DNA of 64,000 nucleotides from Fischerella sp. JS2. Lineage in GTDB: Bacteria; Cyanobacteriota; Cyanobacteriia; Cyanobacteriales; Nostocaceae. The translations under genes and the position numbers were made by a program. The notes under the pieces were generated by a model, which did no database searches, was not told where the DNA came from, and was given only the letters and a program-made list of their open reading frames with translations. Position 1 is the stretch's first letter. Every line of letters starts with the position of its first letter. The stretch spans positions 3,906,001 to 3,970,000 of the forward strand of contig NZ_CP135918.1 in the NCBI RefSeq assembly GCF_032393985.1, read 5' to 3'. Of this stretch, positions 23,811 through 33,181 are shown in pieces.

Positions 23811-24188
23811 ATGTCTCGTAAAAAACGCACGTCCCGCATTTTAGAAAAAGCCGAATTAAGAATTTCTGGACTTAAAGCAATTGATCCTAATATGGATTTT
23901 GGTGATGCTCGCACTTTGCAAAATATGATACAACTAATCGAGCAATACCGTACCAAGCTTGATGCTTATAATACTGCTTTAGCTGTGATTGACTCTGCCA
24001 AAACAGAAATGAAAGAGTTGGAAAAGAAATTAGGCGATCTTTCCGAAAAAATGCTAATCGGTGTTGCTTTTAAGTATGGCAAAGACAGCCTGGAATATGA
24101 AATGGCTGGTGGTGTTCGTAAAAGCGATCGCATCCACAGAAGTTCTGTCAGCCGTATAAAAGGTACTACTGAGGAAATGTCTGAGTAG
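23811..24188 (+). CDS. conserved-looking hypothetical, coiled-coil
   Basis: A 125-aa protein with a long helical middle (residues 40-85; QNMIQLIEQYRTKLDAYNTA ... IDSAKTEMKELEKKLGDLSE) of coiled-coil character, a basic N-terminus (MSRKKRTSRILEKAEL) and a basic C-terminus (GVRKSDRIHRSSVSRIK). No catalytic motif, signal or membrane segment is seen. It is the first rightward gene of the accessory island and lies 220 bases before the CHAT-ATPase; co-expression is possible but a repeat cluster separates them. I do not recognise the family. Confidence 0.75.
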   Translation: MSRKKRTSRILEKAELRISGLKAIDPNMDFGDARTLQNMIQLIEQYRTKLDAYNTALAVIDSAKTEMKELEKKLGDLSEKMLIGVAFKYGKDSLEYEMAGGVRKSDRIHRSSVSRIKGTTEEMSE

Positions 24189-24266
24189 AGACGCGAGGAA
24201 CATCGCGTCTGTACAATAGTGATTAATCGCGTCTGTACAATAGTGATTAATCGCGTCTGTACAATA
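24189..24266. repeat. hairpin repeat plus 24-bp tandem repeat
   Basis: The 22-bp hairpin family (24189-24210, AGACGCGA/TCGCGTCT) runs into 2.7 copies of a 24-bp unit (TCGCGTCTGTACAATAG followed by TGATTAA) at 24203-24226, 24227-24250 and 24251-24266. The tandem copies are identical, so the expansion is recent. It is too short and has no spacers, so it is not a CRISPR. Confidence 0.85.
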
Positions 24267-24409: not shown

Positions 24410-26131
24410 GTGAAAAGAATATTAATTATATCGGCAAACCCCAAAAATACATCTAAGCTCCGCTTAGATGAAGAGGTGCGGGAAATTGAAACAGGGCTGC
24501 AACGTTCTAAAGGACGTGATCAGTTTGAAATTATCTGCAAATGGGCAGTGCGTACTGACGATTTGCGTCGTGCTTTATTAGATTATGAACCACAAATAGT
24601 TCATTTTTCTGGACATGGAGCTGGCGCTCAAGGTTTGGCATTGGAAAATAATGCTGGGGAGATGCAACTTGTAAGTACAGAATCTCTAGCTAGGCTATTC
24701 AGATTTTTTCAAGATAAAGTCGAGTGTGTATTCTTTAACGCCTGCTACTCTGAAGCTCAAGCCCAAGCGATTCACCAACATATTAATTATGTGATTGGCA
24801 TGAACCAAAAAATTGGGGATAGGGCTGCAATTGAATTTGCGGTTGGGTTTTATGATGCTCTGGGCGCAGGTAGAACTTATGAAGAAGCATACGAGTTAGG
24901 TTGTGCTTCTATTGATCTAGAAGGAATTCCAGAGTCTTCAACCCCAGTATTAAAAAGCCCAGGTAATATTTACAAAGCTGGAAATTCTTATGCGTCCAAT
25001 GTTTCACCAGCACAAGAACGAGGTGAAATAGAAAATGGGAGCGATCGCAATGTCATTCGTCTATCGAAAAAATCAGAACAGGTAACACCTACCTCTACAA
25101 CATCTGTTTTTCCCCTAGAAGAACCAGAGGGACAAGTACCTCTAGATTCTGCCTTTTATGTCGAACGTCCACCCATTGAAACCGACTGTTACGAAGCAAT
25201 TGTGAGAACTGGTGCTTTGATTCGGGTGAAAGCACCCAGGCAAATGGGTAAAAGTTCACTGATGAGGCGAATTCTGCATCACGCTGAACAACAAGGTTAT
25301 CAGACTGTATGCATCAACTTCCAAGATGCAGATGCTGAATTTCTCAATAGTTCGGAGAAATTTTTACAGTGGTTTTCCGCTAGCATCACTTACGGGTTAA
25401 ATTTACCAGATAAGTTAGCTGATTATTGGAAAGGCATTTTAGGCAGTAAAAATAAATGTACTAATTATTTCCAACGTTATTTATTGGCTGAGATTGCTCA
25501 TCCTGTAGCTTTGGGTTTAGATGAAGTTGATGAAGTTTTTAAGCATCCCGAAATAGCCCAAGAGTTTTTTGGATTGCTGCGTTCTTGGCACGAAAAGGCA
25601 AAAAATGAACCTATCTGGCAAAAGCTACGACTGGTAATTGTACATTCTAAAGAAGTGTACATTCCTCTCAACATCAACCAATCACCTTTTAATGTTGGTT
25701 TGCCAATTGAATTACCAGAATTTACGCAAATTCAGGTGCAAAATTTAATACAAAAACATGGTTTAAATTGGAATAATTTAGAAGTAGAGCAGTTCATGCG
25801 CTTGTTTGGTGGTCATCCTTACTTAGTGCGAGTAGCATTGTATCAAATTGCGCGTCGGCGTATGACCTTAGAGAAACTACAACAAATCGCGCCCACAGAA
25901 GAAGGTCCCTACAGCGATCATCTGCGTCGCCACTTGCTGAATATCGAAAATGATGCCAACTTATTGGTAGCAATTAGACAAGTGATGACAGCAAATTCAC
26001 CAGTAGATGTAGGAACAACCGAAGCATTTCAACTCCGTAGCATGGGGTTAGTCAAACTGCAAGGCAATGATGTCATGCCGTTGTGTGATTTATATTGTCA
26101 ATATTTCAGCGATCGCTTGGGAATTAATTAG
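24410..26131 (+). CDS. CHAT-domain protease with AAA-like signalling ATPase
   Basis: A 573-aa protein starting at GTG. Residues 1-170 form a CHAT (caspase-like) domain: KRILIISANPKNTSKLRLDEE, catalytic His69 in HFSGHGAG and Cys112 in FFNACYSE. Residues ~245-570 form an AAA_35-type ATPase used as a signalling module: PLDSAFYVERPPIE, Walker [12 protein letters not shown] near 281, Walker B-like LGLDEVDEVF, and the family ending LRSMGLVKLQGNDVMPLC. CHAT proteases joined to NTPases are associated with programmed cell death or defence. No signal peptide is present, so it is cytoplasmic. The next gene has a related ATPase domain, suggesting a shared pathway. Confidence 0.85.
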   Translation: MKRILIISANPKNTSKLRLDEEVREIETGLQRSKGRDQFEIICKWAVRTDDLRRALLDYEPQIVHFSGHGAGAQGLALENNAGEMQLVSTESLARLFRFFQDKVECVFFNACYSEAQAQAIHQHINYVIGMNQKIGDRAAIEFAVGFYDALGAGRTYEEAYELGCASIDLEGIPESSTPVLKSPGNIYKAGNSYASNVSPAQERGEIENGSDRNVIRLSKKSEQVTPTSTTSVFPLEEPEGQVPLDSAFYVERPPIETDCYEAIVRTGALIRVKAPRQMGKSSLMRRILHHAEQQGYQTVCINFQDADAEFLNSSEKFLQWFSASITYGLNLPDKLADYWKGILGSKNKCTNYFQRYLLAEIAHPVALGLDEVDEVFKHPEIAQEFFGLLRSWHEKAKNEPIWQKLRLVIVHSKEVYIPLNINQSPFNVGLPIELPEFTQIQVQNLIQKHGLNWNNLEVEQFMRLFGGHPYLVRVALYQIARRRMTLEKLQQIAPTEEGPYSDHLRRHLLNIENDANLLVAIRQVMTANSPVDVGTTEAFQLRSMGLVKLQGNDVMPLCDLYCQYFSDRLGIN

Positions 26132-26480: not shown

Positions 26481-29400
26481 ATGACCCAGTACCACTATCA
26501 AGTCGGAGGTAGTCTTCCCCAAGATGCCCCAACCTACGTTACCCGTCAAGCTGACAAAGACCTGTATGCAGGCTTGAAAGCTGGTGATTTTTGCTACGTT
26601 CTTAACTCACGGCAAATGGGTAAATCTAGCTTGCGGGTACAGGTAATGCGGCGTCTGCAGTCAGAAGGAGTAGCCTGTGCTGTGATTGATATTACTTCGA
26701 TTGGCACGGCAGATATTACACTAGAGCAGTGGTACGCTGGAGTAATTGATACTTTAATTGGTAGTTTCAATCTTTACACTACTTTTGATTTAGAAACTTG
26801 GTGGATAGAAAATAATTTAATCTCACCAGTCCAGAAGTTAAGCAAGTTTTTAGACACGATATTACTAGAAGCAATTACTACAGATATAGTTATTTTTATC
26901 GATGAAATTGACAGTATTCTGAGTTTGCCATTTCATACCGACGATTTTTTTGCTGTCATTCGGGATTGTTACAATCGTCGCGCAGATAAACCAGTTTATA
27001 ACCGTTTGACATTTGCAATTTTAGGCGTGTCTACTCCTTCAGACTTGATTCAAGACAAGCGACGCACACCATTTAATATTGGTAAAGCAATTGATTTAAC
27101 TGGATTTGAACCACAGGAAACAGAACCACTGGCGCGGGGATTCAAGGATTTTTGCGACCCGCAAGCGATGATGGCAGCAGTGCTGTATTGGACTGGAGGA
27201 CAGCCGTTTTTAACTCAGAAGGTTTGTAAACTGGTGTTGCAAGCAGCCCAAAGTTTATTGGAACACAAAGATCAAGCAAGCGAGAAATGTAAAGAACCAC
27301 ATCCTTATGCGGCGATGTCTTCTTTATCTGCTGTACCAAATCCCTCTAATTTTGTTAGTTGCGTAGTGCGGCAGCGCGTTATTGAAAACTGGGAAGCACA
27401 AGACGAACCCGAACACCTAAGAACTATTCGCGATCGCATCATGCGAAGTGGTGAACAGCGTACCGGGAGGTTGTTAGGATTATGTCAGCAAATTGTCCAG
27501 TCTCCCGATGGAATTCCCGCCGATGATAGCCCTGAACAAACAGAACTGCGTCTGACAGGATTAGTAGTCAAGCGCGACGGGAGGTTACGAATTTACAATC
27601 GCATCTATGCAGAGGTGTTTCAAGAAGAATGGTGCAATAAGTTACTAGCTAAGTTACGTCCCTACGCAGAAACACTGGATGCTTGGGTAGAATCTAACCG
27701 TGAGGATGAATCGCGTTTGCTACGAGGACAGGCTTTGCGATATGCGCAAGCCTGGGCAGCAGGTAAGAGTTTAAGTGATGTAGATTACCAGTTTTTAGCA
27801 GCCAGTCAGGAATTAGAACAGCAATATGTGCAGAAGCGGCTGGAAGTAGAAGCAGAGGCAAAAAAGATTTTAGAAGTAGCAAACCACAAAGCTAAGCGAC
27901 AGATTCAAATTGGTTCTGTGGTGTTAGGAGTAACTTTGGTAGGGGCGGTGATCTCAGGAGTACTTGCTGGATTAAATACTAAGAAATTGCAGCTAGCCCA
28001 GGAAGGAACACGGCTGGAACGGGCAGGAAACGCTGATATAGCGAGATTTGAATTTGATCGAGTGGGGGCTTTGTCCGCAGCACTCAAAGATGGACAGGAT
28101 CTAAAACTACTAGTTGAAAAAAATAACCTGCAAAAATTACAACAATATCCTGCTGCAAGTCCAGTCCTTGCTTTACAGACAATCTTAAACAAAATGTGGC
28201 AACAGAAGTTGTTACTTCAGCATCAGGGTAGTTTCAACAATGCCAGTCTTAGTCCAAATGGGCAATATATTGTCACAACTTCATCAGATAATACTGCCCA
28301 AGTGTGGGATTTGTCGGGTCGACTAATTGCTAGCTTGCGAGGACATCAAGGCATTGTTTGGAAAGCCAATTTTAGCCCGGATGGAAAACGTATAGTGACA
28401 GCTTCCTTTGACAAAACTGCCAAGGTGTGGGACTTATCAGGGAAACTTCTTACTACCTTTAAGGGTCATACGGGTACTGTCTGGAGTGCTAACTTTAGTT
28501 CGGATGGGAAACGCATCATCACCACTTCATCAGACAAAACTGCTCGAATATGGGACTTAGCAGGAAAGCAACTCACTATATTCAAGGGTCATACAGGTAT
28601 TGTCTGTAACGCTAGTTTTAGTTTAGATGGTCAAAGCATTATTACTGCTGGCTCTGATCAAACTATCCGAGAATGGGACTTGGAAGGGAAACAGCAAAAC
28701 TCACTCAGTGGTGATCAGGGACTTGTTTGTAGTGCTAATTTTAGTCCTGATGGGCAAAAAATCCTTACTATCTTATCTCCGCAAACTGTTTTAGTATCAG
28801 AATTGTCAGGTTCAGTATCAGAATTGTCAGTAAAGCAAATAGCGATTCTCAGAGGACATGAAGGCACGATCTACAGTGCTAATTTTAGCCCGGATGGGCA
28901 GCACATTGTTACGACTGCATCAGATCATACTGCTAGAGTATGGGACTTAACAGGACGGGAAATTGCCATTTTACAAGGACATCAAGATAGTGTTTATAGC
29001 GGCAGTTTCAGTCCTGATGGACAAAGGATTCTTACTGCTTCGTCTGATGGTACTGTTCGGATGTGGTCGGGGCAACAATTTGTCAAACAAGAGACTCAAG
29101 ATCCTAAACGCAAACAGCAGGAAATTTCTTCTTCTGATAGAAAACTCACTGTTACGCTTAACGATGACAAAACCACTTCGATATCAGATTTGTCAGGGAA
29201 AAAAATTGCTACTCTCAAAGGACATCTCGGCAAGGTTAATAATGCAACTTTAAGTCCTGATGGTCAAAAGATAGTTACTGCTTCTGATGACAACACTGCC
29301 CGCATATGGGATTTGTCTGGACAGGAAATTGCTACAATGTGGCATCAAGATAAAGTAAATAGTGCTAGTTTTAGCCCAGATGGTCAAAAGATAGTTACTG

Positions 29401-30332
29401 CTGCTGATGACAACACTGTCCGAATATGGGATTTGCTAGGACGAGAAATTGCTACACTGTGGTATCAAGATAGAGTCAAAAGTGCCAATTTTACCCAAGA
29501 TGGTCAGAAGGTAGTTACTGCTTCTGATGATGATACAAAGAAGATTTGGGAAATAAAAAATTTAAAGCAGCTAATAGTACAGGGCTGTGATTGGTTACAC
29601 AATTATTTAGCCTATACACCGAACTTGGGAGAAAGTTATAGTATTGACCCCCGTAAAGTGATTGATCGTGGGTTAGCTATTTCACAAGAGACTCGTAAAA
29701 TCTGTGGTATTGCCTCAGCACCAGCACCTTCTACATCACCAGCTACTACTCCACCCTTTCCAACTCCTAGCAAACCAGTAATAGTGATTGATCCCGGACA
29801 CGGTATTGTCCCGGACACAGGAAACAGTGGTTTTTTGCAAGAAGATGATTTAGTTTTAGCGATTAGCAAAAAGATAGCAGAAATTTTAGAGCGAAATGAT
29901 ATACAAGTTGTATTGACGCGAGATGCCAACAACATCAGTATCTCAGATGTAAATAGCGTATCACCAAGCTTGAGGTACAGAGTGAATATGGCAAAACAAG
30001 TTGACGCAAGTTTGTTTATCAGTGTTCATGCTAATGTGTTTAATGGAAAATACAAGGGGTTAGAAACTTTTTATGCCAGCGATCGCAACAAGCATTTGGC
30101 TGAAGTAGTCCACAATTATATTTTCCAAAGTGTTAATGACTGGTTCAATAGGGGAATCAAATCAGGTCAAGGTTTGTACGTCCTCAAAAACAATTCTGTG
30201 CCTGCAATTCTCATAGAAACAGGTTTTATTGATAATCCAGAAGATGCTGCTCGATTGAGAACCCCAGAGTATCAAGATAAAATGGCTGAAGCGATCGCTC
30301 AAGGTATCCTCAAGTATCTAGAAAAAAAGTAA
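26481..30332 (+). CDS. AAA-like ATPase / TM / WD40 / N-acetylmuramoyl-L-alanine amidase fusion
   Basis: A 1283-aa multidomain protein. Residues ~10-390: AAA_35-type ATPase (Walker [11 protein letters not shown] near 45, Walker [12 protein letters not shown] near 140). Residues ~475-497: one hydrophobic segment ([20 protein letters not shown]) preceded by KAKRQ. Residues ~580-1028: ten clear plus one degenerate WD40 repeats (FSPDGQ...VWDL). Residues ~1075-1097: a Pro/Ser/Thr-rich linker. Residues ~1098-1283: Amidase_3, with all four zinc residues ([25 protein letters not shown]). With the basic flank inside, the ATPase would be cytoplasmic and the WD40-amidase part periplasmic (inference). ATPase-WD40 fusions are common in cyanobacteria; the amidase ending is what is unusual. 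Confidence 0.9.
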
Positions 30333-32440: not shown

Positions 32441-33181
32441 TTATTTAACTTCGCTATGACCTGCAAAAACAAAATGTTCACGGCGATTACCTTTACTACT
32501 GACAGGCCACTCGACTAAATAATGTCCTTCTTCAAAATGAGCATCTAAAATTGGATAAGTACCAGGTTCAATTTTTATACAACTTTCCTTTGGTAAATCT
32601 TTAACTTGTTCTGTGGAAGGCTTGAGGAAAGTAGAAGTTTTGATCATTAAAGTCTGGGGTTTTTTGTTTGTTTGAGAGTTACCAATTAAACCTTTTGTAA
32701 TTGCATCAGCCATTGTTTGGGCATGGTATTTTGTCATATCATTTGCCGAATCACAAAAACAACATTCAATTAAAATCGCTGGCATATCAGTATTTTTTAA
32801 AACATAATAGTTGGCGGTTTTAACTCCTCTATCTCTAAATCCTAATTCCACAATTTCATCTAAAACTTTATCGGCTACTTCACGGGCTTTTGGACTGATT
32901 GCGTAAACTTCTGTACCATTCGCTATACCATTAAATTTATTAAAGTGAATTGAAACGTAAAAATCTACATTTGCTTGGTTAGCTTTATTAACTCTTTTGC
33001 GAAGAGAGTCATCTACACTAGTAGCAGAACTAGGAGTACAATTAACAACCGTATAACCTGCTTTTTGTAAGTTTTGAATAACAATTTCGCCAACTGCTTT
33101 AGTTAAATCATCTTCTTGCTTAATTCCTGTAGCACCGATATCTGGTGGACAGTTGTGACCAATGTCAATTCCAAATTTCAT
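32441..33181 (-). CDS. N-acetylmuramoyl-L-alanine amidase (Amidase_3)
   Basis: A 246-aa zinc amidase that cuts the bond between N-acetylmuramic acid and the peptide stem. Zinc ligands are visible in DIGHNC, KQEDDLTK, SIHFNKF and LIECCF. The catalytic domain covers residues 1-165; the last ~80 residues (IKTSTFLKPSTEQVKDLPKE ...) form a different, possibly SH3-like domain. There is no signal peptide, so it should stay in the cytoplasm unless exported otherwise; phage-type endolysins look like this. The fusion protein encoded at 26481 has the same catalytic fold. Confidence 0.9.
   Translation of the reverse strand: MKFGIDIGHNCPPDIGATGIKQEDDLTKAVGEIVIQNLQKAGYTVVNCTPSSATSVDDSLRKRVNKANQANVDFYVSIHFNKFNGIANGTEVYAISPKAREVADKVLDEIVELGFRDRGVKTANYYVLKNTDMPAILIECCFCDSANDMTKYHAQTMADAITKGLIGNSQTNKKPQTLMIKTSTFLKPSTEQVKDLPKESCIKIEPGTYPILDAHFEEGHYLVEWPVSSKGNRREHFVFAGHSEVK

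Follow-up and report, generated by a model that had tools for sequence, protein, structure and literature searches.

We analyzed a 64,000-nucleotide stretch of the genome of Fischerella sp. JS2 (contig NZ_CP135918.1, positions 3,906,001 to 3,970,000; hereafter the window). On its forward strand, a gene at 26481..30332 encodes, in an intact single frame, a 1283-residue protein with an AAA_35 ATPase domain, one membrane segment, WD40 repeats and an Amidase_3 cell-wall amidase domain. An earlier note on this gene, made from the sequence alone, took the amidase for the terminal effector of a signaling ATPase. That interpretation is partly supported and it is incomplete, as the gene (gene B) is the second half of a two-gene unit. 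The first half, gene A, encodes a CHAT protease fused to a second AAA_35 ATPase. The A-B pair resembles a switch for immunity or cell death that makes contact with the cell wall, probably in order to sense it. We favor, with a probability of about 50%, an outside-in mechanism in which protein B is a wall-touching periplasmic sensor for a cytosolic death protease and the two proteins form a membrane-spanning, NLR-like switch.

In the proposed outside-in mechanism, protein A, with its CHAT protease and AAA_35 ATPase, would reside in the cytosol. Protein B would have its AAA_35 domain in the cytosol and, beyond a single membrane helix, its WD40 repeats and amidase in the periplasm. The WD40-amidase part would engage peptidoglycan, which could be the intact wall or fragments resulting from phage or wall damage. 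The signal would cross the helix to the B ATPase and set the state of an AAA_35 ring, in which the A and B AAA_35 domains may form a hetero-oligomer. The CHAT protease would then be switched on, and the affected cell of the filament, whether infected or damaged, would die or become dormant. In this scheme, the amidase would serve as the input that recognizes the wall, whether or not it also cuts. We infer each of these signaling steps from the anatomy described below: the domains, the recurring A-B pairing, the single hydrophobic segment, the swappable slot that follows it, the common origin of the amidases, the intact active site of the window copy and the faster evolution of the amidase in caspase hosts. 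If the mechanism is correct, a multicellular bacterium senses its own wall through an enzyme turned receptor that is coupled to a cell-death protease. Either way, the A-B pairing offers a testable layout, with a cytosolic effector half and a membrane-spanning sensor half, that can be applied to a large set of ATPase-WD40 proteins from cyanobacteria, and the fusion to an amidase provides a handle on which side of the membrane the WD40 repeats face.

The AAA_35 gene pair and its topology

The AAA_35 domain of protein B spans residues 10-259 (26508..27257; all features of the pair are on the forward strand). It scores 98.8 bits against PF14516, above the cut-off, and its Walker A and Walker B (IFIDEID) motifs are both present. 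Hydropathy places the single membrane segment at residues 480-498 (27918..27974). It is followed by WD40 repeats, predicted to be periplasmic, at approximately residues 580-1040 (28218..29600) and by the Amidase_3 module at residues 1101-1277 (29781..30311). This architecture is the one that had been read from the sequence earlier, with the refinement that the four residues then assigned to zinc are three zinc ligands and a catalytic glutamate. Gene A (24410..26131, 573 residues, no membrane segment) lies 349 bp upstream of gene B. Profile matches identified its CHAT domain (24431..24889, 40.9 bits) and its AAA_35 domain (25124..26110, 480 bits). The CHAT domain contains His69 (SGHG) and Cys112 (NACYS), which we take to be the expected CHAT dyad. 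Walker A and Walker B motifs were found in both partners. In a PADLOC analysis, protein A matched a general CHAT model (82.6 bits) and, weakly, SAVED_CHAT, and protein B gave a partial match over its WD40 region.

Genes scoring at least 200 bits against PF14516 were assigned to class A and those scoring 55-140 bits to class B. Pairing was counted in the window genome and ten others, mostly assembled in few contigs, two of which (G005 and G151) were picked for holding a fused amidase; 17 weak AAA_35 rows, all below 51 bits, were dropped ahead of the count. In these 11 genomes, a class-A gene is located less than 2 kb upstream on the same strand for 35 of the 60 class-B genes. The reverse order, B then A, occurs in 4 cases within 5 kb and in 1 within 2 kb. 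Gaps were measured between the AAA_35 matches, and the reverse gap therefore contains the C-terminal half of B, which makes the 5-kb count the fairer one. The two matches at the window are 398 bp apart on the same strand, well inside the distance that defines a pair. All three AAA_35-amidase proteins that we found have an upstream A gene, which encodes CHAT in the window, trypsin-TIR on plasmid pNsp_e of Nostoc sp. ATCC 53789 and patatin in G005. The similarities of A and B to the window pair co-vary, with a Spearman coefficient of 0.91 over the 25 pairs in which both proteins could be compared, a sample that is not independent because the pairs are related and that includes one short A frame.

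The contents of the two classes are consistent with a cytosolic half and a membrane-spanning half. In class-A frames, hydropathy predicted no membrane segment in 32 of 33 and a weak peak in one. Six of the ten class-A proteins scanned contain CHAT (one also TIR) and two contain TIR without CHAT (one with trypsin); the remaining two showed a weak HTH and AAA_35 alone. The [RK]Q.GK[ST] pattern is present in 40 of 42 class-B frames (of the other two, one has a late start and one is a fragment), and a Walker B pattern is likewise present in 40 of 42. Class-A frames contain GK[ST] in 32 of 33 cases. The Walker B pattern was not seen in 13 of the 33 (2 frames are cut by the stretch end), as if in some pairs the A ATPase, although it retains Walker A, were weakened. 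Frames lacking the Walker B acid pair by pattern include L263, L264, L278-L280, L282, L283, L287, L291, L301 and L302. Two class-B paralogues in the window genome are broken. In L265 (G000:C1:4279000-4290000) the AAA_35-membrane and WD40 parts are split by a 229-aa open reading frame (ORF) that appears transposase-like by eye, and L269 (G000:C1:1841000-1852000) contains an in-frame stop.

Hydropathy predicted one membrane segment in 38 of 42 class-B frames and none in 4. In whole proteins, the segment is nearly always found within residues 375-535, with one exception at residue 819. The charge distribution was counted in 37 of 43 class-B proteins, those with a clear hydrophobic peak. Lys and Arg are more numerous before the segment than after it in 28 of them, fewer in 3 and equal in 6. 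Nineteen class-B proteins, picked mainly for unusual length and not suited to frequency estimates, were scanned for the content of the outer slot, which holds WD40 in ten, GUN4 in five, Peripla_BP_6 in one and nothing recognized in three. The six slots with Peripla_BP_6 or GUN4 are those of L275, L277, L278, L281, L283 and L300. Because of the Lys/Arg bias and the presence of Peripla_BP_6, a family of periplasmic domains that bind ligands, in the same slot, the C-terminal part is probably periplasmic in the class-B family, and the orientation proposed in the earlier note, with AAA_35 inside and the WD40-amidase part outside, is likely for protein B, although its own flanking charges do not share the bias. 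The periplasm is where a wall amidase would meet its substrate. GUN4 and Peripla_BP_6-type modules are also carried by cyanobacterial orthocaspases (PMC8283722). The occurrence of the same outer modules on both kinds of protein suggests that class-B proteins and orthocaspases share one pool of sensor modules.

Distribution and origin of the amidase module

Amidases of the window type are rare, as far as can be judged from counts that rest on the matches listed, with 8-12 candidates scored per genome, and that may miss members. At least seven amidase domains are set off from the others listed (E <1e-57; next best 1e-45) in 217 genomes of the family. At least five were found in 388 genomes drawn from the order, all of them in the same family, and a sample of 388 genomes from the class yielded only the amidase of the window itself, at E 1e-60. 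Two of the seven follow AAA_35-WD40. The search for further proteins of this architecture, which the earlier note had proposed, thus yielded one in addition to protein B, encoded on pNsp_e. Its amidase is 57% identical to that of the window, and its gene A (trypsin-TIR-AAA_35) has a Trypco1 gene ahead of it. The amidase in G005 follows EAD8 (27.3 bits against a cut-off of 27) and AAA_35 in a protein that has no WD40, and the partner there is patatin-AAA_35. The other four, in G136, G149, G170 and G004 (Goleter apudmare), are located behind a caspase-type domain and a membrane segment; Pfam was run on the G170 and G004 proteins. The proteins in G136, G149 and G170 are orthologues, and a Pepco gene adjoins the caspase gene (by Pfam in G170, as similar ORFs in the other two). 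At L051 (8580-12857) and L054 (7672-11922), a second caspase-like gene lies next to the caspase-amidase gene in head-to-head orientation; this second gene contains caspase and FGE-sulfatase domains in L051 and was recognized by similarity only in L054.

The amidase is positioned beyond the WD40 repeats in two of the seven proteins; in the other five, it comes after the membrane segment and a linker rich in Pro and Ser. A Cys...Ser motif (C1075 and S1079 in protein B; 29703..29717) precedes the domain in all seven. This arrangement would also suit a wall anchor or local trimmer, in which the amidase would hold the A-B complex within the wall or at septa, or would open a path through the peptidoglycan for the large periplasmic WD40 part to reach its ligand, without triggering or executing the response. 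iSTAND systems carry peptidoglycan-associating domains behind membrane segments (PMC7159879). However, an active site like the one kept in the window copy would be superfluous for plain binding, and evolution as fast as that described below is unexpected for a plain anchor. We consider such a role improbable.

The fused amidases form one clade of seven, with a bootstrap value of 100 and a value of 99 in the Shimodaira-Hasegawa-like approximate likelihood ratio test (SH-aLRT), in a tree of 85 rows from which 12 long or odd rows were left out. A first tree of 97 rows, with the long branches kept, did not separate them from the other rows by a single branch (2 changes). In the AAA_35 tree, the domains of the three amidase hosts do not group together: they require three changes, none of 200 bootstrap trees has one, and the starred branches force two. 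The AAA_35 domain of protein B is nearest to that of a WD40-only paralogue in its own genome (87/94). Since the amidases form a single clade while the AAA_35 domains of their hosts are ungrouped, the trees indicate that the module has moved between hosts, both AAA_35 and caspase.

A recent neutral capture of the domain, with no function at this locus and in a genome with decaying AAA_35-WD40 paralogues, would be in line with the two broken class-B paralogues and with the rarity of the module. It appears very improbable, as the frame is intact, the active-site residues are kept and the same architecture, with its related amidase, persists on a plasmid of another strain. A housekeeping septal amidase was rejected: a tandem pair of AmiC-like genes exists in the window genome, which has 8 Amidase_3 places in 7 Mb, and the fused amidases form a separate clade. 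A viral origin was rejected as well. For the full protein, 5 pattern stretches were found in viral contigs, none of which is a relative by tblastn; for the amidase, the phage or viral relatives among the matches listed are at most 39% identical, and many are annotated as endolysins. A phmmer screen of 160 loci among the matches listed (80 genome, 80 viral) revealed no Amidase_3 in frame with AAA_35, WD40, caspase or CHAT, and it is too insensitive for a claim of absence because it missed the caspase of L086, which is the G004 locus (PF00656, 71.8 bits).

Active site and rate of evolution

The window amidase scores above the Pfam cut-off for Amidase_3 (PF01520) and has the Amidase_3 fold, with two histidines and one glutamate as ligands and a catalytic glutamate. 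Alignment identified His1107 (29799..29801), Glu1121 (29841..29843) and His1183 (30027..30029) as the zinc ligands and Glu1246 (30216..30218) as the catalytic residue, with the roles assigned according to PMC9929850. The zinc ligands are kept in all seven fused amidases. The catalytic glutamate is kept in five and replaced by Asp in G170 and Asn in G005; the caspase dyad of G170 and the patatin serine motif of the G005 partner are present. The Asn of the HAN motif is kept in 3/7, protein B included. Protein B also retains 43 of the 57 columns that are near-invariant in 78 AmiC rows, and the fused clade differs from these rows at six near-invariant columns, two of which are gaps. The nearest solved structure is that of AmiC2 from Nostoc punctiforme (PDB 5emi), and the window module is about as short as the AmiC2 catalytic domain (180 residues). 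It lacks the additional stretch found in E. coli AmiA-C, where this part holds a blocking helix. Because its active site is intact, cutting of the wall by protein B, even lysis, is possible.

The outer and inner parts of these proteins evolve at different rates. Among the three caspase-amidase orthologues (G136, G149 and G170), strong purifying selection acts on the caspase half, whose ratio of nonsynonymous to synonymous substitution rates (dN/dS) is 0.08-0.12, but not on the amidase, whose ratio is 0.42-0.85 (Fisher p 3e-5 to 9e-4). The AmiC amidase domains of the same three genomes, used as a control, have ratios of 0.08-0.12 (Fisher against the fused copies, 5e-7 to 7e-4). dN itself is higher in the amidase in every pair, at 0.069-0.102, compared with 0.009-0.041 in the caspase and 0.017-0.048 in AmiC. 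In seven class-B pairs with other outer modules, the ratio is higher after the membrane segment in all seven (0.15-0.57 vs 0.07-0.18). Some of the dS values approach or exceed 1, identity after the segment is only 37% in one pair, and both members of one pair come from the same genome. A fast outer part combined with a conserved cytosolic engine would be the pattern of a recognition module.

These data also bear on an inside-out mechanism, in which a cytosolic cue acting through AAA_35, and perhaps through CHAT, turns on the periplasmic amidase to cut the wall, leading to lysis or remodeling. The four intact active-site residues in protein B and in the pNsp_e protein and the AmiC2-like length of the module fit this mechanism, and caspase-Amidase_2 fusions have been discussed as lytic death proteins (PMC3501461). 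However, most of the slots in the relatives scanned are occupied by binding or sensor-like modules, the catalytic glutamate is replaced in two of the seven, the module evolves fast in the three caspase hosts whereas the caspase and AmiC are conserved, and an effector-type protease is already supplied by gene A, which the earlier note had missed. The amidase is therefore not supported as the end effector, while the wall cleavage that the note envisaged stays possible. We consider the inside-out mechanism rather unlikely.

Several observations weigh against the outside-in mechanism. No class-A gene is adjacent to 25 of the 60 class-B genes, and protein B is among the three exceptions to the charge bias, with 3 Lys/Arg before its segment and 4 after. 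PADLOC gave no system match for the window pair. All four active-site residues and the HAN Asn are intact in the window amidase, which is what one would expect of an active enzyme. The dS of the amidase half is low (0.09-0.17, compared with 0.11-0.40 for the caspase half and 0.15-0.59 for AmiC), which lifts its ratio and may be due to recombination. In the linker between the caspase and amidase halves, dN/dS is equally high (0.53-0.94), and relaxed constraint would give a pattern similar to that of sensing. No close orthologue of protein B was found, and the dN/dS values come from its relatives, not from the window copy. We know of no experiment that ties an AAA_35 pair to death or defense. 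Kaur et al. (2020) interpreted the variable C-termini of the caspase system that they described as effectors (PMC7159879).

Neighboring features and comparison with known systems

Upstream of gene A, a 125-aa ORF (23811..24188, forward strand) could encode a small co-component, although its membership is uncertain. Its HBM match of 21.9 bits is under the cut-off of 29.8, and tblastn found only its own copy among the loci searched. Direct repeats of approximately 24 nt, of the CGCGTCTGTACAATAGTGATTAAT type, are located at 24200-24265, between this ORF and gene A. Promoter and terminator scans of the locus gave results at about chance level. A second Amidase_3 gene (32441-33181, reverse strand, 246 aa, no signal peptide seen) is convergent with gene B, 2.1 kb downstream. 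It groups with two other genes of the genome (100 support) on a long branch and seems endolysin-like, and one of these two genes has a repeat tail resembling peptidoglycan-binding domains. Its adjacency to the fused amidases in the first tree was taken as long-branch attraction, and kinship between the two groups was rejected. Given the 8 places in 7 Mb, its closeness to gene B may be due to chance.

By content, the window pair falls among the NLR-like proteins that multicellular prokaryotes use in conflict and cell death: conflict-type domains encoded by the window's genes and those of its relatives include CHAT, TIR, trypsin, patatin, EAD8, Trypco1 and Pepco. Our searches of open-licence papers found no report of AAA_35-WD40-Amidase_3 proteins, of a module shared between AAA_35 and caspase hosts or of the A-B pairing. 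As far as these searches reach, the unfamiliarity of the combination, remarked on in the earlier note, holds for this exact architecture. It does not extend to the idea of joining a death protease to a wall amidase, which is not new: four bacterial caspase homologues with Amidase_2, a different fold, have been in print since 2012 (PMC3501461).

Like the window pair, the nSTAND2 system consists of two adjacent STAND-type ATPase genes. A mixed ring has been proposed for it; one of its ATPases, fused to variable modules, has eroded NTP-binding motifs, and GT4 or HEPN make up most of the effectors (PMC8195603). In the window pair, by contrast, both partners have Walker A and Walker B motifs, protein B crosses the membrane, and no GT4 or HEPN was found among the matches listed. 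Since the Walker B pattern is not seen in 13 of 33 class-A frames, one of the two ATPases may be weakened in other A-B pairs, as it is in nSTAND2, and a wider kinship with nSTAND2 may exist. EACC1-caspase and iSTAND systems are likewise membrane-associated conflict systems with variable C-termini, some of them extracellular or peptidoglycan-associating (PMC7159879). The ATPase of the window pair is AAA_35, and no EACC1 or caspase was found among the matches listed for the three window genes (for gene B, the best 25 of 49).

Membrane orthocaspases with WD40, GUN4, ANF/Peripla_BP_6 or FGE C-termini also combine a cytosolic protease, a membrane segment and a swappable outer module, and 4/7 fused amidases sit on caspase-type proteins. 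Protein B differs in having no caspase, its protease being CHAT in a separate gene. The WD40 and ANF modules of membrane orthocaspases have been read outside-in, as receptors (PMC7475262). FGE/CLec modules have been read as diversified sensors in STAND systems (PMC10907252), and an FGE module adjoins one caspase-amidase gene (L051). The accessory domains of orthocaspases are tabulated in PMC8283722, where the word amidase is absent.

Cyanobacterial AmiC-type septal amidases have the same fold and zinc site as the window amidase. AmiC proteins are exported and have AMIN-type domains, whereas the fused amidases form a clade of their own (100/99 with long branches dropped) and are attached to a signaling ATPase or a caspase. 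Animal peptidoglycan-recognition proteins (PGRPs) provide a further comparison. In these proteins, wall recognition is derived from an amidase of the Amidase_2-type fold, catalytic and non-catalytic members exist, and recognition is wired to immune signaling. The amidase input proposed here would be comparable to PGRPs in logic, not in descent, as the window fold is Amidase_3, which is unrelated to the Amidase_2/PGRP fold. A tentative extension of the outside-in mechanism, which we regard as possible, is that the fused module constitutes a bacterial peptidoglycan receptor. An AmiC-like amidase would have turned into a periplasmic wall sensor and become a cassette among NLR-like AAA_35 switches and orthocaspases. 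Wall damage from phage entry or lysis, or from lytic neighbors, would be answered by CHAT or caspase inside the cell, and catalytic and non-catalytic versions would coexist as in PGRPs. Such a bacterial receptor, if it exists, would parallel in its logic the way in which the animal immune system senses peptidoglycan.

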